DNA from: Saprospiraceae bacterium | GTDB lineage: Bacteria > Bacteroidota > Bacteroidia > Chitinophagales > Saprospiraceae | Assembly: GCA_020629515.1 (NCBI GenBank) | Contig: JAHDDE010000008.1 | Location: 39,769 to 101,010, forward strand | Reading direction: 5' to 3' | DNA: 61,242 nucleotides | Part shown: one piece after another, positions 10,491 to 27,229 of the stretch | Position numbering within the stretch: the stretch's first letter is position 1 | Layout of the letters: each line of letters begins with the position of its first letter | Notes under the pieces: generated by a model | Databases searched by the model: none | What the model saw: the letters and a program-made list of their open reading frames with translations, nothing else | Told to the model about the DNA's origin: nothing | Translations under genes and position numbers: made by a program

Positions 10491-12362
10491 ATGAACTCAA
10501 ATAAAAAAGTAAGTCAAAAGTCTAAAAATGGCTTCATCAAAGCGTTGCTCAAAGATGTCTCTTCATTTGAGCATATGTTGGATCACAGTTGGTTTGAGGA
10601 GGATATAATTCGGATAGGAGCTGAACAAGAAATAGTCATAATAGACAAGGATACCTATGCTCCTAAAAATTTGGGCCCTACCATCTTAGATCAGCAAAAG
10701 GATCTATCATGGTTGGTAAGTGAATTGGCTCAATTTAATCTTGAGATAAATCTCAGCCCTCAGATATTTACAGGTTCTTGTATAAGCGATATGCGAGAGG
10801 AACTAGAACGATGTCTTGCTCAGGTAAGTGTCTCTCTATCCAATTACAATGCGGATTATCTGCTTACAGGAATCCTTCCTACTCTCAAAAAATACCATTT
10901 AGATCTAAAAAATCTAACCCCAAAAGAACGGTACTATCAATTGATGAATGCATTGAGAGGAGAGTCCAAGACCAAATCCTTTGAGTTGAGATTGGTGGGT
11001 ATAGATGAGCTACTGGTGAGACACGACTCCCCATTGATGGAGGCCTGTAATACGAGCTTTCAGGTACACCTTCAGGTTGCTCCACAAGATTTTGCTGCCT
11101 ATTACAATACAGCTTTAGCTCTTACTGCACCATCCATTGCAATATCTTCAAATTCTCCATTAGTATTTGGCAAACGCCTATGGCACGAGACACGCATAGC
11201 ACTATTTCAGCAAGCGATTGATACTCGAAAGACTTTCGACCATATGAGACAGATGAGTCCTAGAGTAACCTTGGGTAATAATTGGTTGGATAACTCTATC
11301 ATAGAAATATTTAAGGAAGATATAGCTCGATTTAGAGTACTCATACATGAAGCGACACAGGAGGATTCTGCACTAATGATTGAACAAAATAAAGTCCCAA
11401 AATTAAAAGCCTTACAACTTCACAACGGTACAGTATATCGTTGGAATAGACCCTGCTATGGCATTAGTGATACTGGAAAACCTCATATTAGAATTGAGAA
11501 TAGAGTATTTCCCTCTGGACCAACTGTCGCTGATGAAATGGCAAATACTTCTTTTTGGCTCGGAGCAATGGTTGGGATGAAAAATCAATATCAAGACCCT
11601 AAAAATCATATGTCTTTTGAGGATGTGAGGGATAATTTTGGAAAGTCAGCAAGGTTTGGTATTGACTCTAAGTTCACATGGTTCAATGACCAAAAAATAA
11701 ATGCTAAAGATCTAATCCTCCAAGAATTGCTTCCTTTGGCACGAGAAGGTTTAAATACTATGCTAGTAGCTCAAAATGATATAGATAAATATCTAAGTAT
11801 CATAGAAGAACGAGCCTGTAAGCACATGACAGGAGCGAGATGGATCCTGCGATCCTATACTAAACTTCTAAAAGATGCCCATAATAAAGACGAAGCAAGC
11901 AATAAGCTCACAGAAGCACTCTACAATAATCAATCTAATAGCAATGTACCAGTACATCTATGGAAGGAACCAGAATATCACGAATTGATTGGGTATAAGA
12001 GCGATACAATGCTTGTATCAGAAATTATGGAAACAGATTTATTCACTTCGGATAAGAACGACTTGGCTGAGATGGTCTATCAACTAATGCTTTGGAAGGA
12101 TTTTCACTATATCCCAGTAGAAGACAAAAGAGGCAATCTCATAGGGCTGGTTAATCAAGATGATATAAAAAATAGAATCGAAGAAGAAGCCCATAAAGAT
12201 GTTTTGATAAAAGATGTTATGATTGATGAACCCATTACGATTGAAGTCGACCAATCTGTGAAAGAAGCAAAATTATTAATGAACTTCCATGGTGTAAATT
12301 GTCTCCCTGTTGTAAGAGGAAAAGAACTAATAGGTATGATAACAGAAGCCGATCTAATTTAG
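10491..12362 (+). CDS. GCS2-family carboxylate-amine ligase fused to a CBS domain pair
   Basis: 623 residues. The N-terminal ~480 match the glutamate-cysteine ligase type 2 family: an early GAEQEIVII strand, LEINLSP, MEACNTSFQVHLQVAP, SSNSPLVFGKRLWHETRIAL and RIENRVFPSGPT. The last ~125 residues are two CBS motifs (SEIMETDLFTSDKNDLAEMV with PVEDKRGNLIGLVNQDD, then IKDVMIDEPITIEVDQSVKE with PVVRGKELIGMITEADLI), which usually bind adenine nucleotides. The ligase is likely ATP-dependent, joining an amino acid carboxylate to an amine, with CBS-mediated energy sensing (inference). The substrate is not settled, and true gamma-glutamylcysteine synthesis is only one option. Its 3' end overlaps the convergent EamA gene by 9 bases. 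Confidence 0.85.
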   Translation: MNSNKKVSQKSKNGFIKALLKDVSSFEHMLDHSWFEEDIIRIGAEQEIVIIDKDTYAPKNLGPTILDQQKDLSWLVSELAQFNLEINLSPQIFTGSCISDMREELERCLAQVSVSLSNYNADYLLTGILPTLKKYHLDLKNLTPKERYYQLMNALRGESKTKSFELRLVGIDELLVRHDSPLMEACNTSFQVHLQVAPQDFAAYYNTALALTAPSIAISSNSPLVFGKRLWHETRIALFQQAIDTRKTFDHMRQMSPRVTLGNNWLDNSIIEIFKEDIARFRVLIHEATQEDSALMIEQNKVPKLKALQLHNGTVYRWNRPCYGISDTGKPHIRIENRVFPSGPTVADEMANTSFWLGAMVGMKNQYQDPKNHMSFEDVRDNFGKSARFGIDSKFTWFNDQKINAKDLILQELLPLAREGLNTMLVAQNDIDKYLSIIEERACKHMTGARWILRSYTKLLKDAHNKDEASNKLTEALYNNQSNSNVPVHLWKEPEYHELIGYKSDTMLVSEIMETDLFTSDKNDLAEMVYQLMLWKDFHYIPVEDKRGNLIGLVNQDDIKNRIEEEAHKDVLIKDVMIDEPITIEVDQSVKEAKLLMNFHGVNCLPVVRGKELIGMITEADLI

Positions 12363-13217
12363 GCGAGTCTCTTTCAAGATGACATTATACACCATACTAA
12401 CTAAAATCAATATCATACCGCATAAACTAAGAATGGTATAGGTCTCATCATACCACACAAAACCAATAATTAGTGAATATATCACTTCCACATACTTTAC
12501 TGGTGCAACCCTACTGGCAGCTTCAGCTTGAAACGATTTGGTCATGAATACTTGACCTATATATCCAAAACATCCAATTAACAACAAAATAATCCACTCG
12601 TAAGAATTAGGATTTCGCCAATATGGTATCATTGCAACACTTGATAATATTGCTGCTGTTAACATAAAATAATTCACTATCACCATAGGATTCTCGGACT
12701 TCCCTATATATCTGATAGTTACATATACCAACCCTCCAAATAGAGCTCCTAAAATCCCCATTACAAAACCAATAATATCTATTCGACTATCAAATCCTTT
12801 GAGCAAGAAAACACCTATCAAAGCCACTAAAAAACAGATCCAACGTTTGAATCTTATATCCTCTTTTAACAACAATACTGCAAAGATAGCCGTGAATATG
12901 GGCGATAAATATTTCAGTGAAATGGAGGCTCCAAAAGGCATACGTTGTACCGTAGCGAAAAACAAAGTCATTGAGATTATGCCAAATACTGCCCTTAAGA
13001 ATAGAAATTTTTGATTATTACCAATTAAAGAAATTTTACAGTGCCACAAATAGGATATACATAAAGCTGCCGTAATGCAAGACCTAAAAAATACAATTTG
13101 AAACACATGAAAATGAGATAAATCCTTTATCATGCCTTGCATGATGGTAAATCCCAATGTTGCAATTAACATATAACGTATCCCAGGAGTAATAGTCGGT
13201 ATTCTTCTATTGGTCAT
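12354..13217 (-). CDS. EamA/DMT-superfamily transporter
   Basis: 287 residues, about ten hydrophobic helices in two EamA repeats (ITPGIRYMLIATLGFTIMQG at the start; VMGILGALFGGLVYVTIRYI at the start of the second half). The family exports or imports small metabolites across the inner membrane. The gene is last in the minus-strand tricarboxylate operon: its ATG overlaps the dehydrogenase end by 11 bases, which suggests translational coupling. It may move an intermediate or by-product of that pathway (inference). The 3' end overlaps the GCS2-CBS gene by 9 bases tail to tail, leaving no room for a terminator between them. Confidence 0.88.
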   Translation of the reverse strand: MTNRRIPTITPGIRYMLIATLGFTIMQGMIKDLSHFHVFQIVFFRSCITAALCISYLWHCKISLIGNNQKFLFLRAVFGIISMTLFFATVQRMPFGASISLKYLSPIFTAIFAVLLLKEDIRFKRWICFLVALIGVFLLKGFDSRIDIIGFVMGILGALFGGLVYVTIRYIGKSENPMVIVNYFMLTAAILSSVAMIPYWRNPNSYEWIILLLIGCFGYIGQVFMTKSFQAEAASRVAPVKYVEVIYSLIIGFVWYDETYTILSLCGMILILVSMVYNVILKETRLN

Positions 13218-14178
13218 TCAAAGCATCCAAATTCACAATATTAGAATTTTCTCCATCGATAAATGCACATACATTCTCAAATGCTTGACTAAAATATAGT
13301 TCATAGCCTTCTTGTTCGACATATCCCAGATGTGGAGTACATATCACATTGGGCATCTGTAATAATGGATGTTTAGAATCAAATATGGGTTCTTCATCAA
13401 ATACATCGAGAGCTGCATAACCCGGTCTGCCGTGTTTGAGAGCTTCTATAATACCATTTGGTTCTATAAGTCCTGCTCTAGCTGTATTTACCAGTAGAGC
13501 ATCTTCTTTCATCATAAGCAAATCCTCCTTTCTGACTATACCTCTTGTTGATGGTTTAAGTCTTAAATGAAGAGAAATTACATCACAGGACTTGAAAAAC
13601 TCTGCTTTCGTATTTACCGTATTATATCCATCTGAAAGTGCTTTTTGACGAGACACATCGCTGCCCCAGATTATTACCTGAGCTCCGAAAGCATCCGCAT
13701 ATTTAGCTATTCTCCTACCTATCTTCCCATATCCCCAAATACCAATTGTCTTACCATATACTCGCCGTCCTATATTCACCTGCCAATTACCCGTTTTCAT
13801 ACCATTGATGGCTTGAGGGATTAACCGAAGACCACTCATGATCAAACACCAAGTCAATTCAGCTGTAGCAATGGGGTTTCCTTTACTTTCAGCTACAGCT
13901 ATACCCCTTTTAGTACATGCCTCAATATCTATGTGATTAGCGTTTTTGCCAGTTTGCGAGATCATCTTCAAATTGGGCAGATTTGATAAAAGCTCGTCAT
14001 CTACAATAGTTCTGGTCCTAGTAAGGACTAATATTTCTGGATCATTGAGCGCTTTTACTTTGAGTTTTATATTGTCAATGTGTCTCGTCAAGATCGTAAT
14101 CTCATGATCTTTAATTATCTCATAGCACCTAAGTGATCTTATGCAGTCTTGATAATCATCAGGTATAGATATTCTCAT
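13207..14178 (-). CDS. D-2-hydroxyacid dehydrogenase family protein
   Basis: 323 residues, NAD(P)-dependent oxidoreductase of the D-isomer 2-hydroxyacid dehydrogenase family. The nucleotide loop is GIWGYGKIGRRIA. The catalytic triad is visible: Arg in VNTARAGLIE, Glu in DVFDEEP and His in CTPHLGYVE. The enzyme should interconvert a 2-oxo acid and a D-2-hydroxy acid in the cytoplasm. It lies 6 bases after the PrpF-like gene and overlaps the EamA start, so it belongs to the tricarboxylate operon. It may reduce or oxidise a 2-oxo or hydroxy intermediate there; homologues are often found beside TctC-type genes. The exact substrate is unknown. Confidence 0.9.
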   Translation of the reverse strand: MRISIPDDYQDCIRSLRCYEIIKDHEITILTRHIDNIKLKVKALNDPEILVLTRTRTIVDDELLSNLPNLKMISQTGKNANHIDIEACTKRGIAVAESKGNPIATAELTWCLIMSGLRLIPQAINGMKTGNWQVNIGRRVYGKTIGIWGYGKIGRRIAKYADAFGAQVIIWGSDVSRQKALSDGYNTVNTKAEFFKSCDVISLHLRLKPSTRGIVRKEDLLMMKEDALLVNTARAGLIEPNGIIEALKHGRPGYAALDVFDEEPIFDSKHPLLQMPNVICTPHLGYVEQEGYELYFSQAFENVCAFIDGENSNIVNLDALNDQ

Positions 14179-14184
14179 AATATA

Positions 14185-15249
14185 TTAATAATAGACATAT
14201 CCATCCATTAACTTCCTCGCTGTGCGTAGAGTTCCTGCACTGTTAACAGTAAAGTTATCTCCCACTCCAGATACCACGATATCAACCGGTATTTTGCCAG
14301 AAGGATGTTCTACTTCAATACGTTCTTCATTATGATCTCCTACCTTAGCTATATCGTGTGCTATAGTTCCTTTGCACTTAATAGCCGTTCCAATACAGAC
14401 TGCACCACTCACAGCATGAGAAGGATGGAGTGAATGAGGAGTTAGATATTGCGATTTGATATTGCCACCTGCAATAGGTTTAGATAACAATCCGACTTTA
14501 GGTAGTACACTATCTGATACATCACCCAGTCCCGCCATCAATCCGGCTTTTAATCTAATTGCTTCTATTTTTGTCATTAATGCTGGATGATTTTCAAAAT
14601 ATTCCTTCTTTTCTGTACCCTTAATTCCAAGATCATTAGCACGCATTAACATCATCAAATTACCTGCATCCACTATGGAAATATCTATTCCATCAATATT
14701 ATCTTTTTGATGACCTGTAGGAAATAACTTGCCTGTCGCACCTCCTGCTATATCATACATCAGCATATGGATTGGTGCTCCTGTCCCTGGTACTCCATCA
14801 ATCGCAAAGTCTCCGTCTGAATAATTTACTTTTCCTCCAGGAGTCTGAACAGTCATTTTTATGGTCGATTTAGTATTATGATTATATACCATGACTTTAG
14901 TCTCTGGATCTGTAGCTTTTACCCATCCTTGTTCTATAGCAAACGGAGCTACCCCACTCATCATATTGCCGCAAGTTGGATTGGTATCCACAATAGGTCT
15001 ATCAATAATTACTTGCGCAAATAGATAATCTATATCAATACCTTCTCTTTCAGAAGGTTCGACCATTACTACCTTACTTGTCACGAATGTCGCACCACCA
15101 ATACCATCAATTTGCTTTTTATCAGGTGATCCCATAATTTTTAGCAGTGTTTCATCTCTCGAATCCAATTCTTTTGGTAATTCTCTTAGATCTAAAAATG
15201 GGCCTCTTGAGGTGCCTGCTCTCATAAAAGTGCATGGGATTCGTTTCAT
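14185..15249 (-). CDS. PrpF/GalD-family alkene isomerase (4-oxalomesaconate tautomerase-like)
   Basis: 354 residues of the PrpF family (diaminopimelate-epimerase fold). The N terminus RIPCTFMRAGTSRGPFL, IMGSPDKKQIDGIGGA, TSKVVMVEP (Lys59) and TNPTCGNMMSGVAPFA (Cys93) match the family's catalytic Lys/Cys pair. The segment EHPSGKIPVDI and the TLRTARKLMDG end also match. Characterised members isomerise double bonds in tricarboxylates: 2-methylaconitate (PrpF), 4-oxalomesaconate (GalD), or cis/trans-aconitate (fungal Adi1). Beside a tricarboxylate transporter and a tricarballylate-type dehydrogenase, an aconitate isomerase role is attractive (inference). Its overall sequence reads closest to GalD in my recollection, but no other gallate gene is present. 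It lies 9 bases after the TctA-TctB gene. Confidence 0.88.
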   Translation of the reverse strand: MKRIPCTFMRAGTSRGPFLDLRELPKELDSRDETLLKIMGSPDKKQIDGIGGATFVTSKVVMVEPSEREGIDIDYLFAQVIIDRPIVDTNPTCGNMMSGVAPFAIEQGWVKATDPETKVMVYNHNTKSTIKMTVQTPGGKVNYSDGDFAIDGVPGTGAPIHMLMYDIAGGATGKLFPTGHQKDNIDGIDISIVDAGNLMMLMRANDLGIKGTEKKEYFENHPALMTKIEAIRLKAGLMAGLGDVSDSVLPKVGLLSKPIAGGNIKSQYLTPHSLHPSHAVSGAVCIGTAIKCKGTIAHDIAKVGDHNEERIEVEHPSGKIPVDIVVSGVGDNFTVNSAGTLRTARKLMDGYVYY

Positions 15250-15258
15250 AATTTGATA

Positions 15259-17214
15259 TTAGAATAAAATTCCTTCAGGAAACTTTAGGTTAAGGAAATA
15301 TCCAAATAGGGTCAGCATCAGCACAGCTCCTCCGGTCAATAAGCTAGTTTTCAACCATAAAGTTTTGGCCTTGAACGTTAAGAACGACACGAAAAATAGG
15401 ATAATAGCTGGGACAAAACCAATTAATCCACTGAGGGCGTATAAGCCTCCTATCCATAACATAGGTTCATACCACGGAGACTTAAAAGTTCCTTCATCAA
15501 CAGCTTGTTCTGCATCAAAGACTGATGCACTTTTTGGATCATTCTTATATAAGATATAAATCAACCCTATGCCAAATGGAAGGGCTAATAATGAAATAAT
15601 CATGGGAAATGCTCCTCCCAAAAAAGACTGCTTGTAAGCATCTATAAGGGCTATAACAATGAACACAAGTACTGCAATAGCAAAAATCAATTGAGGAGTT
15701 CTATTCATACTTTTACCTCCTATATTGGCTTTTTCCATCAACTCAACATTCTCATCGACGGAGCCTTTTCTACTAAAATAAAGGGAGATCAAGGTTAATA
15801 TCATAATGATGATAACCCCTGGTCTAACAAACATTGACCAACTATAAAACTGTACTGACATATTTAAATAGCTCTCAGCTTGGGCGGCCAAAACAAATCC
15901 TATAAGAAATGCTGGTCTAGACCAGCCAAATCTCTTCATAAATGTCCCAATTAATCCAAATACCAATAGCATCCATAAGTCGGTCATATCCTTAGTAGCT
16001 TGGAAAGCAGCAAAGCTAATCACCATTATCATAAATGGTGCTAACAAGCTGAATCTGATACGAGTCAAAAGAGAAATTGGTTCAGAAAGAAAAAGAGATA
16101 AGCCTGCACCTATCACATTGGCAATCGCTAAGGACCAAATAATACTATATGTCAAAGAAATATCTGTAGTTACCATCGAAGGTCCCGCCTCAATACCGAT
16201 CAATACCATTCCTCCTAAAAAGACAGCCATAGAACCTGATCCTGGTATCCCGAAAAGTAATGTTGGCATAAGAGCTCCTCCTTCTTTAGCATTATTAGCC
16301 GATTCAGGCGCAATTACCCCTCTGATATCTCCTTTACCAAAATGATCTTTATCTTTTGACGTCTGCATGGCGTGACCATATGCTATCCAATCGACCACAC
16401 TACCTCCCATACCGGGTATAGCTCCAACTATAGTCCCTATCCCTGCACATCGGATGGCTAACCATTTGTGCTTGATAAAATCTTTTACTCCATCAAGCCA
16501 GCCATTAGTTTTAAATTCTGCCTCATCACTTGCTATAGCTCGATCTTTCCTGAATAATTCTGAAATCTCAGGAAAAGCGAATATCGAAAGAGCAATGATG
16601 ACTAATGGCAAACCATCATATAGATAATTAATACCAAATATCATTCTAAACTCACCAGTGGCTGGCGCCGCTCCAATACTTCCTATTAATAATCCAAATG
16701 CACATGCCAAAACTCCTTTAACCACACTTTTGCCAGATAGTGAGCCAACCATAGAAAGACCAAAAATCGCTAACATAAACAGCTCAGCAGATCCAAATAT
16801 TAGAATTACAGGTCGAGCAATCTGAACGAAAAATGTAAGAATAATGGCACCAAACAGCCCTCCAAATAAAGAAGAAATAAATGAGGCCGATAGTGCTCTT
16901 GATGCTTGTCCTTTCTTAGACAATGGAAATCCATCCAATACAGTAGCTTGACTTGAACTTGAACCCGGGATACCCATCAAGATCGATGAAAAAGTTGCGG
17001 AAGTAGGAATAACTGCAACTAGTCCCACTAAAGTCGCCAGTGCAGCTACCTGATCCATACCATAAATAAACGGTAATAGTAAAGACAACCCTGCTATACC
17101 TCCTAATCCAGGAAATACACCAACTACGAGTCCTAAAAGGACGCCAAGCACTAAAAACATGAAATTAGAAGGATCAAAAAGGGACTGAAATGCTTGCAAT
17201 ACTAAATCAATCAT
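15259..17214 (-). CDS. Tripartite tricarboxylate transporter permease, TctA fused to TctB
   Basis: 651 residues, where TctA alone is about 500. Residues 1-500 are TctA: the conserved LGVLLGLVVGVFPGLGG near the N terminus, and GTIVGAIPGMGGSVVDWIAY, GVIAPESANNAKEGGALMP and LLFGIPGSGSMAVFLGGM. From about 503 (MNRTPQLIFAIAVLVF) to the end, four further helices finishing in FGYFLNLKFPEGILF have the layout of the small subunit TctB (DUF1468). The two membrane subunits are therefore one polypeptide. With TctC it forms a secondary, ion-driven importer of tricarboxylates across the inner membrane. The ATG lies 3 bases from the TctC stop. No frameshift is needed to read through the join. Confidence 0.9.
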   Translation of the reverse strand: MIDLVLQAFQSLFDPSNFMFLVLGVLLGLVVGVFPGLGGIAGLSLLLPFIYGMDQVAALATLVGLVAVIPTSATFSSILMGIPGSSSSQATVLDGFPLSKKGQASRALSASFISSLFGGLFGAIILTFFVQIARPVILIFGSAELFMLAIFGLSMVGSLSGKSVVKGVLACAFGLLIGSIGAAPATGEFRMIFGINYLYDGLPLVIIALSIFAFPEISELFRKDRAIASDEAEFKTNGWLDGVKDFIKHKWLAIRCAGIGTIVGAIPGMGGSVVDWIAYGHAMQTSKDKDHFGKGDIRGVIAPESANNAKEGGALMPTLLFGIPGSGSMAVFLGGMVLIGIEAGPSMVTTDISLTYSIIWSLAIANVIGAGLSLFLSEPISLLTRIRFSLLAPFMIMVISFAAFQATKDMTDLWMLLVFGLIGTFMKRFGWSRPAFLIGFVLAAQAESYLNMSVQFYSWSMFVRPGVIIIMILTLISLYFSRKGSVDENVELMEKANIGGKSMNRTPQLIFAIAVLVFIVIALIDAYKQSFLGGAFPMIISLLALPFGIGLIYILYKNDPKSASVFDAEQAVDEGTFKSPWYEPMLWIGGLYALSGLIGFVPAIILFFVSFLTFKAKTLWLKTSLLTGGAVLMLTLFGYFLNLKFPEGILF

Positions 17215-17216: not shown

Positions 17217-18353
17217 CTAAATATTTAGATCATATTTCTCTCTCAACCAATTTTTCATATACTCTTTTTCCTCCTTTTTAATATTAGTTGCCAGATTAAA
17301 AATTTTCTCTGCTTTCTCTCCAACAGACTGTTCATAGAAACCTAAAGCGACGGGTTTTTCCTTTTTATACTTCTCATCTTTCTTCATGGCCATAATAGCC
17401 TCCCTATACAGACTAACTATTTCATCTGGTGTTTCTTTCGGGGTAAGTAGCAATTTCATACCACCAAAACCTGCTGACATAAATGCAAACCATGTATCCC
17501 ATTTTAACCCCTCCAAAGAATAACCCAATTGTTCATAAACTTCTCCAAAATGTGGTAATTCTGGAAAACTTGGATCTCTTACTAAATTTCCATTTTCATC
17601 TAATGCTCCAAAACTAAAAAGTGGTACAGCGTCTCCCATGGCAACCAGGGGCTTAACATTTTTTATATATGCAGAGGAAGTTTGGTAATCTATCAAGACT
17701 TCTCCTCTCTCGAATGCAAGACGTCCTGCTCCTCGTCCTCTAAATCCAAAAACTGCATCCACATTAAGACCTAAAAGATCGAATGAAAACATAGGAACAA
17801 TATCTAATGATGTAGGCCCCTGACTGGCATATTTAAGCGGGATGTCCTTAATCTTATGTAAATCTGTGGCCGAATTAATCCCCAACGAAGGAGAACAGTA
17901 AACCACTCCTCCAGTAGGATAAGACATCAAAGGTTTATACTTTTTGTAGTCATACCTCACTCTTGGATCGTCTAATAAATAAGGCATCTGTGTTGTACCA
18001 GAAGTACCTAAAATCATTAGCCCATCTGGCTTAACCCTATCAGCGAATAAATTAGCTCCTTTAATTGATCCTCCACCAGGTATATTATTAACTACTACCA
18101 CAGGATTGCCCGATAAATGCTTAGTAAAATACGGGAGATTAAATCTAGCCCATGTATCTCCACCGCCCCCTTCTTTAAAAGGTATAATCCATTCTATGGT
18201 TTTATTCTTAAAATAATCATTACCAATTTCTACAAATGATCCATCTTCATTCTTAATATCTGTTTTTTCAGAAAATACATAAACCACTGTATAATAGAGT
18301 AATAGAAAACTCAATGATAGCAGTAAAGTCTGTTTAAGCTGTTGTTTATTCAT
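17217..18353 (-). CDS. TctC/Bug-family periplasmic tricarboxylate-binding protein
   Basis: 378 residues, somewhat longer than the usual ~320. An N-terminal hydrophobic segment (about residues 9-28) serves as signal or membrane anchor. The family's ligand-loop motif follows as IEWIIPFKEGGGGDTWARFN, then VVVNNIPGGGSIKGANLFAD, GVVYCSPSLGINSATDL and GFRGRGAGRLAFERGE. Bug proteins capture carboxylates in the periplasm through two water-bridged loops. It is followed directly by the TctA-TctB permease and preceded by the TcuA-like gene with a 9-base gap. I see no lipobox, so anchoring by an uncleaved helix is possible. Confidence 0.9.
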   Translation of the reverse strand: MNKQQLKQTLLLSLSFLLLYYTVVYVFSEKTDIKNEDGSFVEIGNDYFKNKTIEWIIPFKEGGGGDTWARFNLPYFTKHLSGNPVVVVNNIPGGGSIKGANLFADRVKPDGLMILGTSGTTQMPYLLDDPRVRYDYKKYKPLMSYPTGGVVYCSPSLGINSATDLHKIKDIPLKYASQGPTSLDIVPMFSFDLLGLNVDAVFGFRGRGAGRLAFERGEVLIDYQTSSAYIKNVKPLVAMGDAVPLFSFGALDENGNLVRDPSFPELPHFGEVYEQLGYSLEGLKWDTWFAFMSAGFGGMKLLLTPKETPDEIVSLYREAIMAMKKDEKYKKEKPVALGFYEQSVGEKAEKIFNLATNIKKEEKEYMKNWLREKYDLNI

Positions 18354-18362: not shown

Positions 18363-19844
18363 TTATTCGGCAGCGGCAAAACCCGCCAATCTTCCAAAAA
18401 CCGATCCTGAGGTTAAACCGGAACCTCCTGGATAACCATTGTAAAATACGCCTCCTACCATCTCTCCACAAGCATATAATCCTTTTATAACCGCACCTTC
18501 TACATTTATTACTGCTGCATCTTTATTTACTTTCAATCCTCCATAAGTAAAAGTTATCCCACATGTCACTGGATATGCTTTGTATGGAGGCTGTGATAAC
18601 TTGTTTGCCCAATTCGTTTTATTTGGTGTTAATCCGCTAGTTCTTTTACCATCTAAAGTAGTAGGGTCAAAGGAGCCAGAAGAGTCAACAGCTTTATTAT
18701 ATGTCTTAATAGTTTTAAGTGCTTGACCTTTATCGATGTCGTCTATTTGATCAATCAAGCCTTCAATCGTATCTGATTCAAAAAAACTGGCATCCCAAAA
18801 TTTATATTCTCCATAAAGTAGATCATCCACCTGTCTATCAAAAATTTGCCATGCTACATTCGAAGGTTGATTTAAAATAGCCCTTCCGAATTGCGCATAG
18901 GTATAATTTCGAAAATTTATTCCTTCATCTACAAACCTTTTACCCTCCTTATTTAACATAATTCCTAAGAAATAGCAGATTTTCCGATAATGCTTCCTCT
19001 CTATATAGGGAATACTTTCATTTCCATAGTTAGGCATATTCCTATCCATGGGAGTAGCATGACAACCCTTTGGATTTCCATTAAAATCAGCTCCTATTTC
19101 TAAAGCCATTGCAATACCTGCGCCCGTATTATGCTTTGTTCCTCTCACCTTCGCTTTAACCCACTCTTCCCCCATGAATTTAGCTCTCATTTCAGAATTA
19201 GCCTCAAATCCTCCACACCCCAACACTACGGAGTCCGCACTTAAAAATTCCTCAATTCCATCCGCATTTATGACATCAGTTCCTACTATTCGATCATTTT
19301 TATATACTAACGCCTTAGCTTCAGTATTGTAAACAATCTTACCTCCAAGTCTCAAAAATTCTCTTAACTCGGCTTCTACTAATCCTACGCCTTCTCCTTT
19401 TGCCTCGAGTGTAAGTCCTCCCCAAAAAACATATTTACCATCTTTTTTAAAAGTTTGTCTCGAATAAATAGGTTCAAACTTAATGTTGTGAGTGCCGAGC
19501 CATCTTAATGTATCATAACTCTGATCTATCAAAATATGTTGATGGAGACTCAGGGGAGCTCCATCATTGAATGAGAGTAAATCCTTTTGAAATTTATCCT
19601 TTGTGTAAGAACCAAATTCAGTAATCGAAATCTTCTCATCATTTGGATTTAGAAGTAGTGGCAATAGGTCTTCTTTAGAATTATACACAAAGCGCATGGC
19701 TCCAGCTGTATATTTGCTATTACCACCTGCTTCTTGTTCATTGGCCTTTTCGATTATGGTTACCTCTGCTCCCTTCTCAAGTGCGGCAATACCAGCACAT
19801 AATGCCGCATTCCCACTACCTACAACTATAATCTTTTTTGACAT
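18363..19844 (-). CDS. FAD-dependent tricarballylate dehydrogenase-like protein (TcuA family)
   Basis: 493 residues in the FAD-binding fumarate reductase/succinate dehydrogenase flavoprotein superfamily. The dinucleotide fold IIVVGSGNAALCAGIAALEK and the following GGNSKYTAGAMRF are hallmarks of TcuA. The C-terminal active-site region reads YPVTCGITFTYGGLKV and YACGEMVGGVFYNGYPGGSG. TcuA oxidises tricarballylate to cis-aconitate. In Salmonella the electrons leave through the TcuB membrane protein, but no tcuB is visible here. The gene starts ten bases after a hairpin terminator that follows the receptor gene, so its expression may depend on read-through or on its own promoter. Substrate assignment rests on family and context. 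Confidence 0.85.
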   Translation of the reverse strand: MSKKIIVVGSGNAALCAGIAALEKGAEVTIIEKANEQEAGGNSKYTAGAMRFVYNSKEDLLPLLLNPNDEKISITEFGSYTKDKFQKDLLSFNDGAPLSLHQHILIDQSYDTLRWLGTHNIKFEPIYSRQTFKKDGKYVFWGGLTLEAKGEGVGLVEAELREFLRLGGKIVYNTEAKALVYKNDRIVGTDVINADGIEEFLSADSVVLGCGGFEANSEMRAKFMGEEWVKAKVRGTKHNTGAGIAMALEIGADFNGNPKGCHATPMDRNMPNYGNESIPYIERKHYRKICYFLGIMLNKEGKRFVDEGINFRNYTYAQFGRAILNQPSNVAWQIFDRQVDDLLYGEYKFWDASFFESDTIEGLIDQIDDIDKGQALKTIKTYNKAVDSSGSFDPTTLDGKRTSGLTPNKTNWANKLSQPPYKAYPVTCGITFTYGGLKVNKDAAVINVEGAVIKGLYACGEMVGGVFYNGYPGGSGLTSGSVFGRLAGFAAAE

Positions 19845-19924: not shown

Positions 19925-22900
19925 TTAGAAGTTATAATTCAATGCCATATTTAAGAATCTTCCAGTCGTTCCAAACTGATTCACTCTTCTTGAATAGATA
20001 ACTTCTTTTCTTACTTGTGCAGACCTAAGCATATCTGGATATACATCAGTGAAGTTGTTAGCTCCTAATGTAATCGAGAATTGATCTGTGATGTGTCCTG
20101 TAACTGAAAAATCAAATATAGTCTTAGCACTTAGTATTTGAGGATTTCCCGAGTCGTCTCTTAATCGAGGCTCAGAAACCTCACCAAAATTAGTTGCTCG
20201 AAGTAAAAAGCCCAATTTGCCTACTTTATAGTCTACACTTGTTATGATTTTGCGCTTTGGAGCTCCATCAGTCAAGTAAACTATATCATTATTAGCAGTT
20301 GTTAAATCACCTGCATAAATTGATAAAGGTCCTGGCAAATTAACACCATCATCTGGAATAGTTGTGCTGTTAAAGTTAGCAGCCACAGTTACTCCAATGC
20401 TACTTGTCTCACTCATGAACTTCTTATAGGCCGCTACTATATCTAAGCCTTGAGTTTTAGTATCTACGGCATTAGTAAAGATCGTGATCTCATCGTAGTT
20501 AGCTCCATTGAATGCTGTAAAATCTCCAGGATTAATTCCTCCTAATGCTAATATTCTATCGGAAATATTAATCTGGTAGGCATCTACAGTTAATGAAAAT
20601 CCATCAGATAACTGTGCGGTGACACCTGCTGCAATATCAAAAGAAGTTTCAGGATTTAAATTTGAAAAGCCAAATGCGCTTTGCACCAATTCATCACGTA
20701 TAGGCAGTATTGGTTCCAATACAGAATTACCATCATTGTCAAATGAAATCTGACTAAAGTTACTGTACTGATATTGTGCCAAGCCAGGAGCTCTAAAAGA
20801 TCTATTTATTGACGCCCTAATCCCGACCTTATCATTTACCTTATATCTGGATGCAAGTTTATAAGAGAAGTCACTTCCAAAATCTGAGTAGTCTTCAAGT
20901 CTTACTGCTGCAGCTACTAAAAAAGCATCTGATAAATCTGATTCAACTTCAGCATAAATCCCTTTATTATTTCTTCTCCACTCTCCATCTGTTCTGGCAG
21001 TAAAACCCTCACGACCAGATGATCCAATATCCTTGCTATCTCTAAATTCTCCAGGTAGATAAGATTCTATCTGGCCTTGTGATTGCTGAAAAGATTCCAT
21101 TCTAATCTCAGATCCAACGGCCAAAGTGGTATTTCCGAAAGTTTTAACCGCATCCGCATTTATTACTGTCTGAGTAACTCCAAGTGTTCCTGTGTGAAAC
21201 TCTGTAGGAGATAAGATACCCATACTTGGGTTAACTGTATTTCGAGCAAATAAATCTACCTCATTACCACTATGTCCTAAACTTATATCAAGATTCCAAT
21301 CATTTCCTATATCTCCCTTGATACCGGTCGTCATTTGAAAATCCGTTAAATCCGAAGGAACTTCAGGATTATATCCATCAGGGAATATTTCTAATACTGC
21401 TCTCGAAGTTCTGGCAGGAGTTCTTGTAAAAACACCTCCAATTACATGCTTCTTAGTAATTCCACCAAAAGAATAGAAATCCCAATTATCATCGATAGAT
21501 TTTCCAGCATTTACAAAAATGCCCATATTGGTATTTTCAGCAGTACCTAAGACAGCTCTATCTGGATTTATTCCGTTTATTCTCTGTAATTCCTCATCAC
21601 TTGAAACTCCCGCAGCAGCTACCTGAGCATCAGTATACCATCCTGAACTATGAGAGTATGTTCCTGATCTGTCGGTAGGCTCAGCATGGCTATAGGTTAA
21701 GGTTGTATTCACAAACCCATCATCTCCCCATGGAAGTCCAAAATTAGCAGACATATTAATCGTCTGACCATCAACAACTGGGTCATCACCATAAATTTTA
21801 TCACCTTCAGGACCTGCATTAGTGATACCATCATAGGTCGGAGAAGTACTTGTTGACCCGTAATACATTCTTATAGCTCCCCCAGATCTTGAGTCGTTTA
21901 ATTGCATATTCATCACACCTGCGATGGCATCAGAACCATATTGCGCCGCAGCACCATCTCTTAGTATTTCAACTCTTTTAACTGCTGCCGAAGGAATAGA
22001 ATTAATATCATTGGCTAATTGTCCTTTACCAACTCCAGCATTATTACTGAAAAAGGCGACTTTATGTCTTCTTTTCCCATTTAATAATAATAATGTTTGA
22101 TCAGGAGAAAGTCCTCTCAATGATGCAGGATCAACTAAAGGTGCCAAATCATTGATTCCAAATTTAACAGCACTAAAAGAAGGCGCTGAGTAGTGCAAAG
22201 ACTGTCCTATATCAGCCTGACCTGTAGAATTTAATTCCTTAGCATTAATCACATCGATTGGAACAGGACGATCTACATCAGTCCGTGGTCTACCACGTGA
22301 TCCTAAGATTGTAACACTCTCCAAGGCGACGCCTGCCGACATGACAACATTAATTACTGATTGTCCATTTACCTCTATTTCTGTATCATTATAACCTGTA
22401 AATGAAAAAACCAGGACGTTACTTCCATCTGGGACGTTAATGGAATAGTTACCATCTAGATCAGTTATAGTACCCGCTGAAGTGCCTTTGACCAATACAT
22501 TTGCCCCAAACAATGGATCGCCATTGTCATCTGTTACTTGACCAGATACCTGAATAAAGTCTGAGTTAATCGTTTCTTCTGTTACTTTTTGAACCAAAAC
22601 GATATTGGTATTACCATATACGGTAAAATCAATGCCGTATGGATTCAAAAAATTAGATAGTACATTTTGTAGCTTTTCGTTCTGTGCTTCAATTGATACT
22701 TTCTTAATATTTTTAATTAAACCTGGTCGATAGGTGAAGTATACTGAAGCTTCTTTTTCCAATTGTTTTAAGGCCTTTTTCATGCTTACCTCCTCCAATT
22801 CTATATCTATTTTTTGATTCAGAATCTTCTGGGCTTCTGCGCTATTGGCTTTAACAACTGTTAAAGAAAGTGAGATTAAAAACAGTTGAATGAAACTAAA

Positions 22901-22948
22901 TTTCATAACTGATCGGATTAAGTTTGATAGTTTAATGTTTTTCTCCAT
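19925..22948 (-). CDS. TonB-dependent receptor with STN signalling domain (FecA-like)
   Basis: 1007 residues, outer membrane. In order: signal peptide (about 1-38), STN domain (about 45-118; KIDIELEEVSMKKALKQLEK), a carboxypeptidase-regulatory-like beta domain (about 131-211; GQVTDDNGDPLFGANVLVKG), plug (about 220-350) and a 22-strand barrel ending in the aromatic LNMALNYNF. The STN domain talks to FecR, encoded just upstream. There is no SusD partner and the plug is not of the SusC type, so the ligand is probably small: a tricarboxylate or a metal-tricarboxylate chelate (inference, from the neighbours and the FecA precedent). A near-palindrome and a hairpin lie between fecR and this gene. 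Confidence 0.92.
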   Translation of the reverse strand: MEKNIKLSNLIRSVMKFSFIQLFLISLSLTVVKANSAEAQKILNQKIDIELEEVSMKKALKQLEKEASVYFTYRPGLIKNIKKVSIEAQNEKLQNVLSNFLNPYGIDFTVYGNTNIVLVQKVTEETINSDFIQVSGQVTDDNGDPLFGANVLVKGTSAGTITDLDGNYSINVPDGSNVLVFSFTGYNDTEIEVNGQSVINVVMSAGVALESVTILGSRGRPRTDVDRPVPIDVINAKELNSTGQADIGQSLHYSAPSFSAVKFGINDLAPLVDPASLRGLSPDQTLLLLNGKRRHKVAFFSNNAGVGKGQLANDINSIPSAAVKRVEILRDGAAAQYGSDAIAGVMNMQLNDSRSGGAIRMYYGSTSTSPTYDGITNAGPEGDKIYGDDPVVDGQTINMSANFGLPWGDDGFVNTTLTYSHAEPTDRSGTYSHSSGWYTDAQVAAAGVSSDEELQRINGINPDRAVLGTAENTNMGIFVNAGKSIDDNWDFYSFGGITKKHVIGGVFTRTPARTSRAVLEIFPDGYNPEVPSDLTDFQMTTGIKGDIGNDWNLDISLGHSGNEVDLFARNTVNPSMGILSPTEFHTGTLGVTQTVINADAVKTFGNTTLAVGSEIRMESFQQSQGQIESYLPGEFRDSKDIGSSGREGFTARTDGEWRRNNKGIYAEVESDLSDAFLVAAAVRLEDYSDFGSDFSYKLASRYKVNDKVGIRASINRSFRAPGLAQYQYSNFSQISFDNDGNSVLEPILPIRDELVQSAFGFSNLNPETSFDIAAGVTAQLSDGFSLTVDAYQINISDRILALGGINPGDFTAFNGANYDEITIFTNAVDTKTQGLDIVAAYKKFMSETSSIGVTVAANFNSTTIPDDGVNLPGPLSIYAGDLTTANNDIVYLTDGAPKRKIITSVDYKVGKLGFLLRATNFGEVSEPRLRDDSGNPQILSAKTIFDFSVTGHITDQFSITLGANNFTDVYPDMLRSAQVRKEVIYSRRVNQFGTTGRFLNMALNYNF

Positions 22949-22997
22949 AGTTTTGAATTGTTCAAATAATTAGATCAGATTCATCTTTGGTTAGTAC

Positions 22998-23017
22998 AAT
23001 AATGCTGCAACATTATT
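22998..23017. promoter_or_regulatory. 20-base near-palindrome upstream of the receptor gene
   Basis: AATAATGCTGCAACATTATT pairs with itself at 9 of 10 positions. It lies 50 bases upstream of the receptor ATG, a suitable place for an operator or for part of an ECF-dependent promoter region. Confidence 0.4.
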
Positions 23018-23045
23018 ACCAGAGAGAATTGATTAATGAATTTGT

Positions 23046-23078
23046 GTCGAGGGTAACTTTTTATCCTCGACTTTTTTT
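23046..23078. other. Hairpin at the fecR 3' end
   Basis: GTCGAGGGTAA (23046-23056) and TTATCCTCGAC (23061-23071) form an 11-base stem with one wobble and a 4-base loop, with T7 on the plus-strand side. The genes run on the minus strand, where the A-run precedes and no U-run follows. It therefore looks more like an mRNA 3'-end or stability hairpin just after the fecR stop than a classical terminator. Confidence 0.5.
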
Positions 23079-24153
23079 ATTGACAAGAACCATCTATTAT
23101 GATCTTACCATCACGTTCGTAATATGTAAGACCTAAAGGATGACATACGATTTCCAATTTTTCATAAAGCGTTTCTTCTGTAAGCGTAGTTGATAATCTA
23201 CAATCGACTTTTGCGCCTTCATAAATACTTATTTGTACCCCGTAGGCTTCTTCTAATGCTTGAAATATTTCAGAAACAGGTGCTGCATCAAAGTATAATT
23301 TCTTTAAAGTTCTAAGTGGCTTGATAAGACTCGGAGTCGAAGTCAATCTTCTAGTCATACTCTGATCAGCTTTATTAAACACCACTTTTTGATTAGGTGT
23401 TACCACGAGTGGTTTTAACTCACTGGTCTTTATCTTCTTCAATTCCACAATGTCCTTTCTCTTATATACAGCAACTTTTCCTGTTTTAACAATCACCTCA
23501 ATATCCTTATCCAACTCTTTTGCCTTAACAAAAAAACTGGTTCCAAGGACTCTGATCACAGCATCATTAGCATAAACATAAAAGGGCTTAATGGTATCTC
23601 TGGCAATATCAAAAAATGCTTCTCCTTTTAAGATTACGCTTCTTGTTTTACCTGTAAATGATATGGGATATTTTAGATAACTATCTGGCTCAAGCACTAC
23701 AGTACTTCCATCCTTCAACTCGACCCTCCAAATAGCATCGGTGCTATTAGTATATTCTATCCATTTAGAATTTTCGTTTAGCGTTACTAACTCTTCAGAC
23801 TTATCTTCCGTTACAAATAAATGATAACTCGGTATAGATAAGCCTATCACTACGGATGCAGCAATTAACCACCTTTTTACTTTTCCAAAAATAGGATTGT
23901 GATGAGGTTCTATGGAACTCATGATATCGTCCCAAGTATTACTAATTACTTCTTTGGTTATAGGTGTTGAGGTAGAATCATGAAGCTTTAAGATTGTTGC
24001 TTTAGCTTCTTCAACTAAAGATTCTTTGCTGGGATTATTCTTCAACCATTCTCGCCAAAAAGCATTTGAAGATTCAGTTGGATTATGTACCCATTCACAA
24101 AACTGATCGTCAGTTACAAAATCTTCTAATCTATAATCTACAAAATGCCTCAT
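23077..24153 (-). CDS. FecR-family anti-sigma factor
   Basis: 358 residues. A cytoplasmic N-terminal region that holds the sigma factor (about 1-85) is followed by one membrane helix (WLIAASVVIGLSIPSYHLFV, about 89-108), the periplasmic FecR domain (about 135-235; KDGSTVVLEPDSYLKYP, VILKGEAFFDIA, RVLGTSFFVKA) and a C-terminal DUF4974 domain (LKKLYFDAAPVSEIFQALEE). DUF4974 receives the signal from the STN domain of the receptor in Bacteroidota. It lies 58 bases after the sigma gene and 128 bases before the receptor, the usual sigma/FecR/receptor order. Confidence 0.95.
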   Translation of the reverse strand: MRHFVDYRLEDFVTDDQFCEWVHNPTESSNAFWREWLKNNPSKESLVEEAKATILKLHDSTSTPITKEVISNTWDDIMSSIEPHHNPIFGKVKRWLIAASVVIGLSIPSYHLFVTEDKSEELVTLNENSKWIEYTNSTDAIWRVELKDGSTVVLEPDSYLKYPISFTGKTRSVILKGEAFFDIARDTIKPFYVYANDAVIRVLGTSFFVKAKELDKDIEVIVKTGKVAVYKRKDIVELKKIKTSELKPLVVTPNQKVVFNKADQSMTRRLTSTPSLIKPLRTLKKLYFDAAPVSEIFQALEEAYGVQISIYEGAKVDCRLSTTLTEETLYEKLEIVCHPLGLTYYERDGKIIIDGSCQ

Positions 24154-24211
24154 GACATGATTTAATCAATCTATACATGAGTAAGAGTATTAGGAGTTTA
24201 GATTATACTCA

Positions 24212-24778
24212 CTAAATCACATTTTTTTTCTCAACTTTTTTTCTTAACGCATAAATAGCACGTTGCAGAATATTAGCAACTGATTGTACCTTGATCTGCA
24301 TCAATTCAGCTATCTGTTGATTACTTAATTTTTGATAATACTTCAGGTGTAAGGCTTCTATCTGTCTATCAGGCAATAGACTTATTGATTTTCTTACCAA
24401 ATAAGTTCTCGACTGATTGATCTCTTCTTTAATGATCAGGGATTCAATGGATTCTTGTTTTAGCTCTTTGTTATTAATCTGGAGGGAGACAATATTTTTA
24501 TTATTCTTTATTGTCCGAATCAACTTATACTTAAAGCTTTTAAGAAGGTAAGATTTTATATGTTCTACTTCTCCCAGTTTCTGTCGATTATTCCAAAGTT
24601 CTATAAATAACTCCTGAATAGATTCTTTTATGACATCTGTATCTGAACACAATTTGAATCCAAATTGAAACATATCTTTAGCATATAATTGGTAGAGCTG
24701 AGCAAAAGCAATTTTGCATCCATTTCTAAAATCATACCAGATTTGTTGATCTGACATTTTATGCTGTACAGACTTCAT
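24212..24778 (-). CDS. ECF-type RNA polymerase sigma factor (FecI-like)
   Basis: 188 residues. Region 2 (FAQLYQLYAKDMFQFGFKLC through ESIQELFIELWNNRQKL) binds core and the -10 element. Region 4 (LPDRQIEALHLKYYQKLSNQ through LMQIKVQSVANILQRAI) is a helix-turn-helix for the -35 element. It is the first gene of the tricarboxylate locus and is divergent from aconitase across 165 bases. It is expected to be held by the adjacent FecR and released when the receptor binds its ligand. Start at ATG 24778; an internal Met eight codons in is also possible. Confidence 0.94.
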   Translation of the reverse strand: MKSVQHKMSDQQIWYDFRNGCKIAFAQLYQLYAKDMFQFGFKLCSDTDVIKESIQELFIELWNNRQKLGEVEHIKSYLLKSFKYKLIRTIKNNKNIVSLQINNKELKQESIESLIIKEEINQSRTYLVRKSISLLPDRQIEALHLKYYQKLSNQQIAELMQIKVQSVANILQRAIYALRKKVEKKNVI

Positions 24779-24943: not shown

Positions 24944-27229
24944 ATGCCATTTGATTTAGACATGATTAAAGCCCATTATGAGGCACTCCCAGGAAAAATA
25001 GAAAAAATTCGATCAGTTCTTAAAAGACCATTAACACTGTCGGAAAAAATTCTCTATGCACATCTACACGAAGATTCTCCTTTGCAGAATTATTCAAGAG
25101 GGAAAGATTATGTCTTTTTTGCTCCTGATAGAGTTGCTATGCAGGATGCTACCGCTCAGATGGCATTACTCCAGTTCATGATGGCAGGTAAAGATAAAGT
25201 TGCTGTACCTTCTACAGTCCACTGTGACCACCTGATACAAGCTAAAGTAGAAGCAGATGAAGACTTAAAAGTGGCTAATGATATTAACTCAGAAGTATAC
25301 TCATTCTTAGAGTCTGTATCCGATAAGTATGGATTAGGGTTTTGGAAGCCAGGAGCGGGTATCATTCATCAGGTCGTTTTAGAAAATTATGCATTTCCAG
25401 GAGGAATGATGATTGGTACTGATTCTCATACGCCCAATGCTGGCGGATTAGGAATGGTTGCTGTAGGTGTTGGAGGAGCTGATGCAGTAGATGTAATGGC
25501 AGGAATGCCTTGGGAACTAAAAATGCCAAAACTGATTGGCGTAAAATTAACAGGAGAATTGAGCGGATGGGCCTCACCAAAAGACGTTATCCTGAAGGTA
25601 GCGGGAATACTAACCGTAAAAGGAGGAACTGGAGCGATTGTGGAATATTTTGGAGAAGGGACCAGTAAGATAAGTTGTACGGGTAAGGGCACTATGGGTA
25701 ACATGGGGGCCGAGATAGGAGCTACTACATCAACTTTTGGATATGATGACTCAATGAGTCGATACTTAAATGCTACAGGACGATCAGAAATAGCAACTCT
25801 GGCTGATACAGTAAAAGAGCATTTAAATGCAGATCCAGAGTGTTACGCTGATCCAGATAAATACTTTGACCAAGTAATTGAAATTGATCTGAATTCATTA
25901 GAGCCATTATTAAATGGCCCATTCACACCAGATTTAGCAACTCCCGTTTCGGAGATGGCAGCAAAAGCTGCAGCTGAAGGTTGGCCAACAGAATTAGAAT
26001 ACTGCTTAATAGGTTCTTGTACTAATTCGTCTTATGAAGACATTACAAGAGCCGCTTCAATTGCTCAACAGGCGATTGATAAAAAAATCAAAGCTAAATC
26101 TCAATTGACTGTAACTCCTGGCTCAGAACAAGTCAGATTTACGATAGAAAGAGATGGTTTAATCGATACATTGCAAGGAGTTGGTGCAAAGGTTTTTGCC
26201 AATGCTTGTGGACCATGTATTGGACAGTGGGCAAGATTCGCTGATCCTATGAATGCGCCTAAAAATAGTATAGTTCATTCATTCAATAGAAACTTCTCCA
26301 AGAGAGCAGATGGAAGTCCGAATACACATGCATTTGTTGCTTCACCAGAATTAGTAACGGCAATAGCTTTATCTGGCAAACTCGGTTTCAATCCAATTAC
26401 AGATACCCTAACTAATGAAGATGGAGAGGAAGTAAAATTAGATCCGCCAACAGGATTTGAATTGCCACCAAAAGGATTTGATGTAGAAGATGCTGGATAT
26501 AATGCACCAGCAGAAGATGGAAGTAGTATAGAAGTTAAAGTTTCTCCAACTTCTGATAGACTACAACTACTTACTCCTTTTACAACTATCGAAGCTGATC
26601 ATCTACACGATATGAGGTTGCTGATCAAAGCGAAAGGAAAATGTACTACAGATCATATTTCTATGGCTGGACCATGGTTGAAATTTAGAGGACACTTGGA
26701 GAATATCTCCAACAACTGCCTGATAGGGGCTATTAATGAATTTAACGAAAAGGCCAACAGTGTAGCTAACTACACTGATGATCCAAGCAATGCAGAATAC
26801 TTGGCTGTGCCAGATAGCGCAAGAAAATATCAAGCCGCTGGTATAAAGACAGTAGTTTTTGGAGAAGAAAATTATGGTGAAGGATCATCAAGAGAGCACG
26901 CAGCTATGGAGCCAAGATTTTTAGGAGTTCAGGCAGTAATAGTAAAATCCTTTGCACGTATCCACGAAACCAATCTTAAAAAGCAAGGAATGCTGGCATT
27001 AACTTTCGTTAATCCTGATGACTTTGCTAAGGTTAGGCAAGATGATTTAATCTCTTTATACGGATTCGCAGATATGGCACCGGGTAAACCGCTGACGGTA
27101 CATTTACAGCATGCAGACGGTACAGATGATTATTTTGAAGTAATGCATACTTATAATCAAGCTCAAATCGAATGGGTTAGAAGTGGATCAGCTTTGAATA
27201 AGATCCGTGAAGAAGCTGGAGTAGCCTAA
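24944..27229 (+). CDS. Aconitate hydratase, mitochondrial type
   Basis: 761 residues. TCA-cycle enzyme interconverting citrate, cis-aconitate and isocitrate with a [4Fe-4S] cluster. The cluster cysteines are Cys359 (IGSCTNSS), Cys422 and Cys425 (ACGPCIGQW). Other family marks are [15 protein letters not shown] in domain 1, [15 protein letters not shown], and the swivel-domain active-site loop [19 protein letters not shown]. It is divergent from the tricarboxylate operon, whose predicted product cis-aconitate is its substrate, so the placement is functionally sensible. It is also the only aconitase seen here, so it may simply be the housekeeping enzyme. A strong terminator follows. Confidence 0.97.

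Follow-up and report, generated by a model that had tools for sequence, protein, structure and literature searches.

TonB-dependent receptors (TBDRs) are usually linked to iron chelates, vitamins or glycans. For the catabolism of small tricarboxylates, Salmonella tcuA is described as encoding tricarballylate dehydrogenase and tcuB as encoding the FADH2:quinone oxidoreductase for TcuA (PMC10468695), and the Bacillus PrpF-superfamily protein TarA is described as an aconitate isomerase (PMC11495376). Bacteroidota are already on record for tripartite tricarboxylate transporters (TTTs), providing 18 of the 152 homologues of an alginate TctC reported in PMC13390454; because a Vibrio TTT in the same report takes alginate oligosaccharides, the substrate cannot be read off the family name. 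Our literature searches found no publication on an operon joining a TBDR to a TTT, which by itself does not prove that none is in print. Here we analyse a stretch of 61,242 nucleotides (the window) from a Saprospiraceae bacterium (assembly GCA_020629515.1, contig JAHDDE010000008.1, positions 39,769 to 101,010), following up an earlier note made from its sequence. The minus strand of the window carries a block of nine genes (12354–24778) encoding, in this order, an extracytoplasmic function (ECF) sigma factor, FecR, a TBDR, a TcuA-like dehydrogenase, TctC, a fused TctA–TctB, a GalD/PrpF-type isomerase, a D-2-hydroxyacid dehydrogenase (D2HDH) and an EamA protein. This operon is real and is kept together in relatives. 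On balance it is probably a self-contained, apparently horizontally moved operon for uptake and catabolism of a C6 tricarboxylate, most likely tricarballylate and/or trans-aconitate.

Recurrence and layout of the nine-gene block

Apart from the window, gene maps were drawn for 15 loci that have TctAB at 73–80%; 18 other loci were tabulated in all (L-numbers denote the loci compared and G-numbers the genomes compared, G000 being the window's own). The full set from sigma factor to D2HDH was found in four of the 15 (L104, L192, L196 and L197), which belong to four other family genomes, and L104 and L196 carry EamA as well. Because the set recurs in this way, it is not a chance assembly. A fifth locus, L198, holds the receptor through D2HDH, with contig ends on both sides. 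Across the 15 loci, TcuA of the window's clade occurs in 10 and classical TcuA in L105, PrpF in 11, D2HDH in six and EamA in five. The TBDR was matched in seven (L103, L104, L105, L192, L196, L197 and L198) and gave no match in the several kilobases of flank of L102, L189, L190 and L191, where TctAB is at 77–80%; contig ends leave the other four (L101, L193, L194 and L195) undecidable. With the window included, 8 of the 12 loci with sufficient flank therefore have the TBDR next to the cassette. Within the order, three families have the receptor orthologue next to the cassette, and in Flavobacterium it adjoins TcuA–PrpF. The earlier note had read the block as a single transport and catabolism locus, which the four other genomes bear out; in relatives the same gene set is kept together (complete in 4 of 15), though the transporter occurs without it too.

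Some sister loci exchange parts. In L105 (genome G484), receptor, TctC, TctAB and PrpF stand alongside a classical pair, TcuA (TIGR02485, 597.5 bits; cut-off 372.55) and TcuB (TIGR02484, 436.4 bits; cut-off 246.6), and in Flavobacterium muglaense (L010) the order receptor–TcuA–PrpF is followed by a major facilitator superfamily (MFS) transporter, with no TTT match within the available stretch. The locus forms a natural swap series in which the role of each part can be tested: TTT or MFS, TcuB-linked or TcuB-less TcuA, sigma/FecR or none.

Such genes are uncommon in the samples searched. TctA–TctB gave matches in 12 of 148 relatives, and 16 of 298 family genomes had fused TctAB at E 1e-100; TctA is rare in the class, with a match in 5 of 395 genomes (over the cut-off in four, the window's genome included). 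For TcuA, the phylum sample at E 1e-100 yielded 1 of 395 (the window's genome itself), the order sample at E 1e-60 yielded 3 of 298 (itself, one at 67% and one classical at 34%), and the genus of F. muglaense at E 1e-100 yielded 1 of 199 (F. muglaense itself). Other Bacteroidota TTTs (L107–L115) have TctA at 26–34%, and no general pattern of receptor pairing was seen there in the nine neighbouring genes scanned at six of these nine loci; in one, L114, a SusC/SusD-type pair lies 4–6 kb away. A different order of TTT fusion was noticed at L107:6719–9716, where a family member has a TctC–TctB fusion (500 aa) adjoining TctA. Distant fused TctABs (52–53%) occur with TctC and without the enzymes of the block in L106 and L199; the one in L106 adjoins gamma-glutamyltranspeptidase and amidohydrolases, which suggests another substrate for the same transporter type.

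All open reading frames (ORFs) of the block and the adjoining aconitase were confirmed at their positions (10 of 10), and these ten were scanned with Pfam and NCBIfam (Table 1); nine have Pfam matches, the exception being TctC. The gene list and minus-strand order of the earlier note, from sigma factor to EamA, were found as it had given them, the families being confirmed by Pfam and NCBIfam and, for TctC, by fold and homologues. From TcuA to EamA the intergenic gaps are 9, 2, 9 and 6 bp, followed by an 11-bp overlap, and because these gaps are so small and end in an overlap the stretch is very likely co-transcribed as a single transcript. The gaps further upstream are 80 bp (receptor to TcuA), 128 bp (fecR to receptor) and 58 bp (sigma to fecR). 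An 11-pair hairpin lies between fecR and the receptor gene (window positions 23046–23071), with a T-run on its plus-strand side. A consensus promoter scan returned 38 sites, below the mean of 48.1 for shuffled sequence, and so gives no information on promoters.

Table 1 Genes of the block and its two neighbours, with positions in the window
Feature	Length (aa)	Position	Strand	Basis
ECF-type sigma factor	188	24212..24778	-	Sigma70_r4_2, TIGR02985, homologues beside FecR
FecR anti-sigma factor	358	23077..24153	-	PF04773 + PF16344
TBDR with N-terminal STN-type segment and CarbopepD_reg domain	1007	19925..22948	-	Pfam, locus-linked orthologues
TcuA-like FAD-dependent dehydrogenase	493	18363..19844	-	NF006130
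Divergent TctC solute-binding protein	378	17217..18353	-	homologues with PF03401, model fold
Fused TctA–TctB membrane permease	651	15259..17214	-	PF01970 + PF07331
GalD/LigU/YbhH-type PrpF-superfamily isomerase, proposed aconitate isomerase	354	14185..15249	-	PF04303
D-isomer-specific 2-hydroxyacid dehydrogenase	323	13207..14178	-	PF02826 + PF00389
EamA-family transporter	287	12354..13217	-	PF00892
Housekeeping aconitase (adjoins the block, not a member)		24944..27229	+	TIGR01340
Left-flank gene, glutamate-cysteine-ligase-like with CBS domains (not a member)		10491..12362	+	judged by eye

Among the transporter genes, TctA (PF01970) scores 412.9 bits (cut-off 28.9) over residues 19–437 of the fused chain, and a TctB match (PF07331) follows as a C-terminal fusion at residues 510–646, over its whole domain length, at 26.1 bits (below the cut-off of 29.1). 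For the window TctC, Pfam returned nothing even at E 10; of six homologues scanned, those of L104 (30.1 bits) and L025 (30.4 bits) pass the PF03401 cut-off of 27, three fall below it and L018 gave no match. For an AlphaFold model of the window protein built from 13 sequences (pLDDT 88.3), the 17 best Protein Data Bank (PDB) matches are TTT-type binding proteins, including BugD, TphC, MatC, Bpro_3516, the Ideonella terephthalate binder and Rpa4515, together with 2dvz and Bug27, which we take to be of this type. Judged from this modelled fold, the protein is a divergent TctC. Its N-terminus has a hydrophobic stretch and no cysteine. By eye, Bacteroidota TctC N-termini look membrane-tethered, Cys-free in the window and lipobox-like in L105 and L106, and those of Alphaproteobacteria look like ordinary cleaved signals. 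The EamA protein (PF00892, 111.5 bits) may export or import.

Among the enzymes, the TcuA-like protein matches FAD_binding_2 (118.4 bits) and NF006130 (547.5 bits; cut-off 369), and stays below the cut-off of 372.55 for the narrower TIGR02485 (209.7 bits); in a TcuA tree it falls in a clade (SH-aLRT 100) with Bacteroidota, gammaproteobacterial and alphaproteobacterial proteins. The isomerase scores 339.1 bits with the PrpF Pfam family PF04303, 438 bits with the 4-oxalomesaconate (OMA) tautomerase model NF033377 (cut-off 440) and 198.4 bits with the PrpF model TIGR02334 (cut-off 440.55). It can be aligned with the LigU and YbhH structures, and its Lys59 and Cys93 align with LigU residues that we take to be catalytic; the Lys and Cys motifs were found in all eight sequences searched. 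The D2HDH matches PF02826 (2-Hacid_dh_C, 167.5 bits) and PF00389 (71.6 bits) and has the Arg, Glu and His motifs, presumably catalytic.

The insertion site and a cassette shared with Alphaproteobacteria

The window holds 12,581 bp between the left-flank gene and the aconitase gene, and this interval contains exactly the nine-gene block. In the family-mate G202 the left-flank homologue and aconitase share a strand with 72 bp between them, and in G396, of the same genus, they are 939 bp apart with a single opposite-strand ORF between them; to the right of the G396 aconitase, eight of the window's next nine genes follow in the same order. The same gap is filled by other genes in G395 and G451 (5.0 and 4.5 kb), and none of the available stretches of G142, G361, G428 and G480 has the pair together. 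No aconitase match occurs in any of the 18 other tabulated loci, within the available stretches. Since the block interrupts genes that are adjacent in relatives and no aconitase was matched in those stretches of the 18 loci, the aconitase is not a block member: the synteny in G202 and G396 rejects it, and with it the link that the earlier note had drawn between the divergent aconitase and the block. The window aconitase (TIGR01340, 1089.8 bits; Pfam aconitase, 480.9 bits) could still serve as the downstream enzyme because it is the sole aconitase found in its genome, where the search returned one full protein and one 29% partial match; an AcnB-type aconitase gave no match in G000, G396, G428 or G480. 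The gap in G395, also of the same genus, holds an AcnB-type aconitase (L157:7071–9875), so the genes that fill this gap vary from genome to genome.

Beyond Bacteroidota, 80 TcuA loci were fetched and the 40 with a TcuA match of at least 57% were counted. TctED was found in 13 (12 alphaproteobacterial, one gammaproteobacterial), TctC in 13, TctA in 17 (15 of the fused type, two of these 15 partial), PrpF in 17 and D2HDH in 13, all 13 alphaproteobacterial. FecR, sigma factor and TcuB had no match in any of the 40 loci, and the TBDR had one in two: L010 and L008, the latter from a gammaproteobacterial metagenome-assembled genome (MAG), at 29%. In L008 (9995–18216) TcuA (63%), TctED, that receptor and TctC (53%) are adjacent, a possible independent pairing of receptor and TTT outside Bacteroidota. 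Two other observations concern TcuA. Eighteen Methylobacterium loci (L024, L026, L027, L029–L034, L036–L041, L046, L081 and L085) carry TcuA of the window's clade, 17 with a GntR-regulator match nearby; neither TTT nor PrpF was matched in the flanks fetched. On a MAG contig labelled Chitinophaga pinensis (L068), TcuA sits among betaproteobacterial ones on a very short branch, probably a binning error.

In a tree of 36 TctABs of at least 480 aa, the six from Bacteroidota form one clade (SH-aLRT 100). It is nested in a clade of fused proteins that otherwise come mainly from Alphaproteobacteria, and its placement beside Rhizobium is weakly supported (81). L106, the relative at 53%, falls outside the Bacteroidota clade, and neither donor nor direction is resolved by this tree; the TcuA tree likewise leaves the branching order of Bacteroidota, Gammaproteobacteria and Alphaproteobacteria unresolved. 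The block has apparently moved horizontally. A foreign base composition was looked for and rejected: the GC content of the block (0.367) equals that of the window (0.367), so there is no signal of recent transfer.

The receptor and its regulators

A receptor search of nine genomes placed at the top, outside G000, four matches that all adjoin the same genes, the locus-linked identities being 69% in G428, 62% in G480, 52% in G484 and 50% in F. muglaense. The closest paralogue within G000 matched in two pieces (213.5 and 173.3 bits). At E 1e-30 there was no receptor match in G396, a genome without fused TctAB. From these comparisons the receptor looks co-inherited with the cassette, and the earlier note's assignment of a signalling TBDR to the locus agrees with the four best outside matches. 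Weaker matches, to second related receptors, were seen in G480 (43%; L164:5506–8361) and in G484 (56% over 511 residues, at a contig end; L165:3–1544), each with no cassette beside it in a short contig.

The receptor matches the TonB barrel (105.7 bits), Plug (64.6 bits) and CarbopepD_reg_2 (67.6 bits) families of Pfam, and STN at 20.2 bits, below the cut-off of 28.4. Its nearest solved structures by sequence are PirA, SusC homologues, FepA, CirA and BtuB. The earlier note had called the receptor FecA-like; FecA is absent from the 22 PDB matches at E 1e-5, so a FecA-like sequence is rejected and the resemblance to Fec is confined to the logic of STN, FecR and sigma factor. Neither a SusD partner nor glycan enzymes were found among the ten ORFs scanned.

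Upstream, the sigma factor matches Sigma70_r4_2 (36.2 bits; cut-off 25.7) and, below its cut-off of 126.4, TIGR02985 (82.9 bits), and homologues at 35–39% adjoin FecR in L104, L192, L196 and L197. FecR exceeds the cut-offs of both PF04773 (55.7 bits) and the FecR_C family PF16344 (39.4 bits), with 40–44% homologues in four sister loci. Eight intact receptors were compared. In the five beside sigma/FecR (the window, L104, L192, L196 and L197) the CarbopepD domain starts at residue 125–134, and four of the five have an STN match ahead of it (20.2, 26.3, 35.7 and 21.4 bits; none in L197), with only that of L192 (35.7 bits) over the cut-off. In the three without sigma/FecR (L103, L105 and L010) CarbopepD begins at residue 35–47 and STN has no match. 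L103 and L010 gave neither a FecR nor a sigma match anywhere in the available stretch, and L105 gave no FecR match in the 292 bp upstream of its receptor, where the start of FecR would be expected. Because the N-terminal STN-type extension tracks sigma/FecR in these receptors (5 of 5 with, 0 of 3 without, one of the three judged on 292 bp), the operon is likely under sigma/FecR control through an STN-bearing receptor, as the earlier note had supposed.

Candidate substrates and comparison with described systems

Tricarballylate and trans-aconitate are favoured as substrates because of the TcuA–TcuB pair in L105, the MFS swap in L010, the alphaproteobacterial cassette and the Bacillus isomerase; by analogy, the pair in L105 strengthens the candidacy of either acid. 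Both acids are one step from cis-aconitate. In the proposed route, the TBDR would carry the compound, free or metal-bound, across the outer membrane using TonB energy, and its STN segment would signal occupancy to FecR, which would free the ECF sigma factor for transcription of the operon. TctC, probably tethered to the membrane, would pass the acid to the fused TctA–TctB permease. In the cytoplasm TcuA would oxidize tricarballylate to cis-aconitate or, alternatively, the PrpF/GalD-type enzyme would isomerize trans-aconitate to cis-aconitate, which the cell's own aconitase would pass into the tricarboxylic acid cycle. We tentatively suggest, as a possibility short of an even chance, that this is a relay from receptor to TTT in which a TBDR actively imports and senses a small tricarboxylate carbon source, free or as a metal chelate, and delivers it to a membrane-tethered TctC and the fused TctAB, a cassette shared with Alphaproteobacteria having been joined to a Bacteroidota receptor and sigma/FecR, with a TcuB-independent branch of TcuA.

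Several points weigh against this picture. A free tricarboxylate (about 176 Da) is a small and unusual ligand for a TBDR, and a metal chelate may therefore be what is carried. In both G480 and G484 another related receptor lies apart from the cassette. The TctC sequence is divergent and its ligand is not readable from it. The window TcuA lies outside the classical TcuA clade and misses the TIGR02485 cut-off, and TcuB (TIGR02484) was not found in G000, G484 alone being positive among the eight genomes searched. The isomerase scores closer to the GalD/OMA tautomerases, just under their cut-off, than to PrpF, and is nearer to GalD, LigU and YbhH; D2HDH and EamA are both outside the two-step route. 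A GalD-type isomerase together with a D2HDH therefore leaves room for a different tricarboxylate. TctC–TctAB occurs without TcuA in L190 and L191 and without PrpF in L102, L190, L194 and L195, so the transporter can serve other routes.

The different tricarboxylate might be a longer or oxidized one, such as a C7 oxo- or hydroxy-acid: D2HDH would form the 2-oxo acid, TcuA would desaturate it and the GalD-type enzyme would tautomerize it, as in the lower gallate/protocatechuate route. Such a scheme gives D2HDH a role, and it accords with the GalD/LigU/YbhH-like isomerase and with D2HDH in 13 of the 40 close TcuA loci and 6 of the 15 other TctAB loci (73–80%), but we think it unlikely. The LigK/GalC aldolase (TIGR02798) has no match in G000, G428, G466 or G484 and only sub-cut-off matches in the other four of the eight genomes searched, and because it was not found in the genome the case for a gallate-type lower pathway is weakened; moreover, the ten ORFs scanned include no aldolase and no hydratase besides aconitase, and G484 uses the classical TcuA–TcuB. 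It also seems improbable that a wholly different acid (an aldarate, oligouronide, aromatic or sulfonated compound) is carried by the transporter and used by the enzymes. TTT binding proteins take varied acids, alginate oligosaccharides among those described (PMC13390454), the window TctC is divergent, and the 53% TctAB relative in L106 has gamma-glutamyltranspeptidase and amidohydrolases as its neighbours. Against this, TcuA- and PrpF-type enzymes recur beside the transporter in Bacteroidota and Alphaproteobacteria, and the ten ORFs scanned contain neither a polysaccharide lyase nor a glycosidase.

The regulators invite a reading in which iron acquisition comes first, the receptor taking a ferric-tricarboxylate chelate and the enzymes clearing the carrier acid. 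The architecture of sigma factor, FecR and STN receptor is of the ferric-citrate type, and NF007296, the FecR of ferric citrate uptake, matches the window FecR weakly (34.1 bits versus a cut-off of 385). Yet an ABC transporter of the FecBCDE type, a ferric reductase and other iron genes are all missing from the ten ORFs scanned, the receptor sequence is not FecA-like, and sister loci keep the catabolic genes without sigma/FecR, which makes this reading very unlikely. That the receptor and regulators lie beside a TTT catabolic operon by accident is harder still to credit: four loci with TctAB at 77–80% (L102, L189, L190 and L191) show no receptor match in several kilobases of flank, but the receptor is present in 8 of 12 decidable loci, and its orthologue stands by the cassette in three families and by TcuA–PrpF in Flavobacterium.

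A TBDR tied by inheritance to probable three-carboxylate catabolism poses a testable question: does the receptor pump a 176-Da acid or its metal complex? A substrate guess is now also attached to the TcuA–PrpF–TctABC cassette, which is present in roseobacters too. The tctC–tctAB–prpF–D2HDH–tcuA cassette of Rhodobacterales and Rhizobiales shares with the block the fused TctAB, a divergent TctC, the GalD/PrpF-type isomerase, D2HDH and the TcuA clade; it differs in its TctED two-component regulators, in a GntR regulator found in 8 of 15 loci with fused-type TctAB, and in giving no match in those loci to the TBDR, FecR or sigma factor of the window. Cell-surface signalling of the FecIRA type resembles the block in its adjacent STN-bearing TBDR, FecR and ECF sigma factor, whereas the block's receptor is not FecA-like and the genes after it are catabolic, none of those scanned being an iron gene. 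Salmonella tcuABC likewise has a TcuA-family dehydrogenase supplying cis-aconitate to aconitase, but is described with TcuB and the transporter TcuC (PMC10468695), where the block has a TTT, an isomerase and an outer-membrane receptor and no TcuB. In the tarRAB system for trans-aconitate assimilation in Bacillus velezensis a PrpF-superfamily isomerase adjoins an importer, as in the block; that importer, TarB, is reported to be of the MFS type and TarR to be the regulator (PMC11495376), whereas the block has a TTT, TcuA and sigma/FecR. Pseudomonas aeruginosa OpdH with TctD–TctE, as described in PMC6403454, offers a dedicated, substrate-controlled outer-membrane step for tricarboxylates, there with a porin under two-component control and in the block with a TBDR probably under sigma/FecR. 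If the relay from receptor to TTT is true, it would fill in Bacteroidota the place that a porin plus TctED takes in Proteobacteria.

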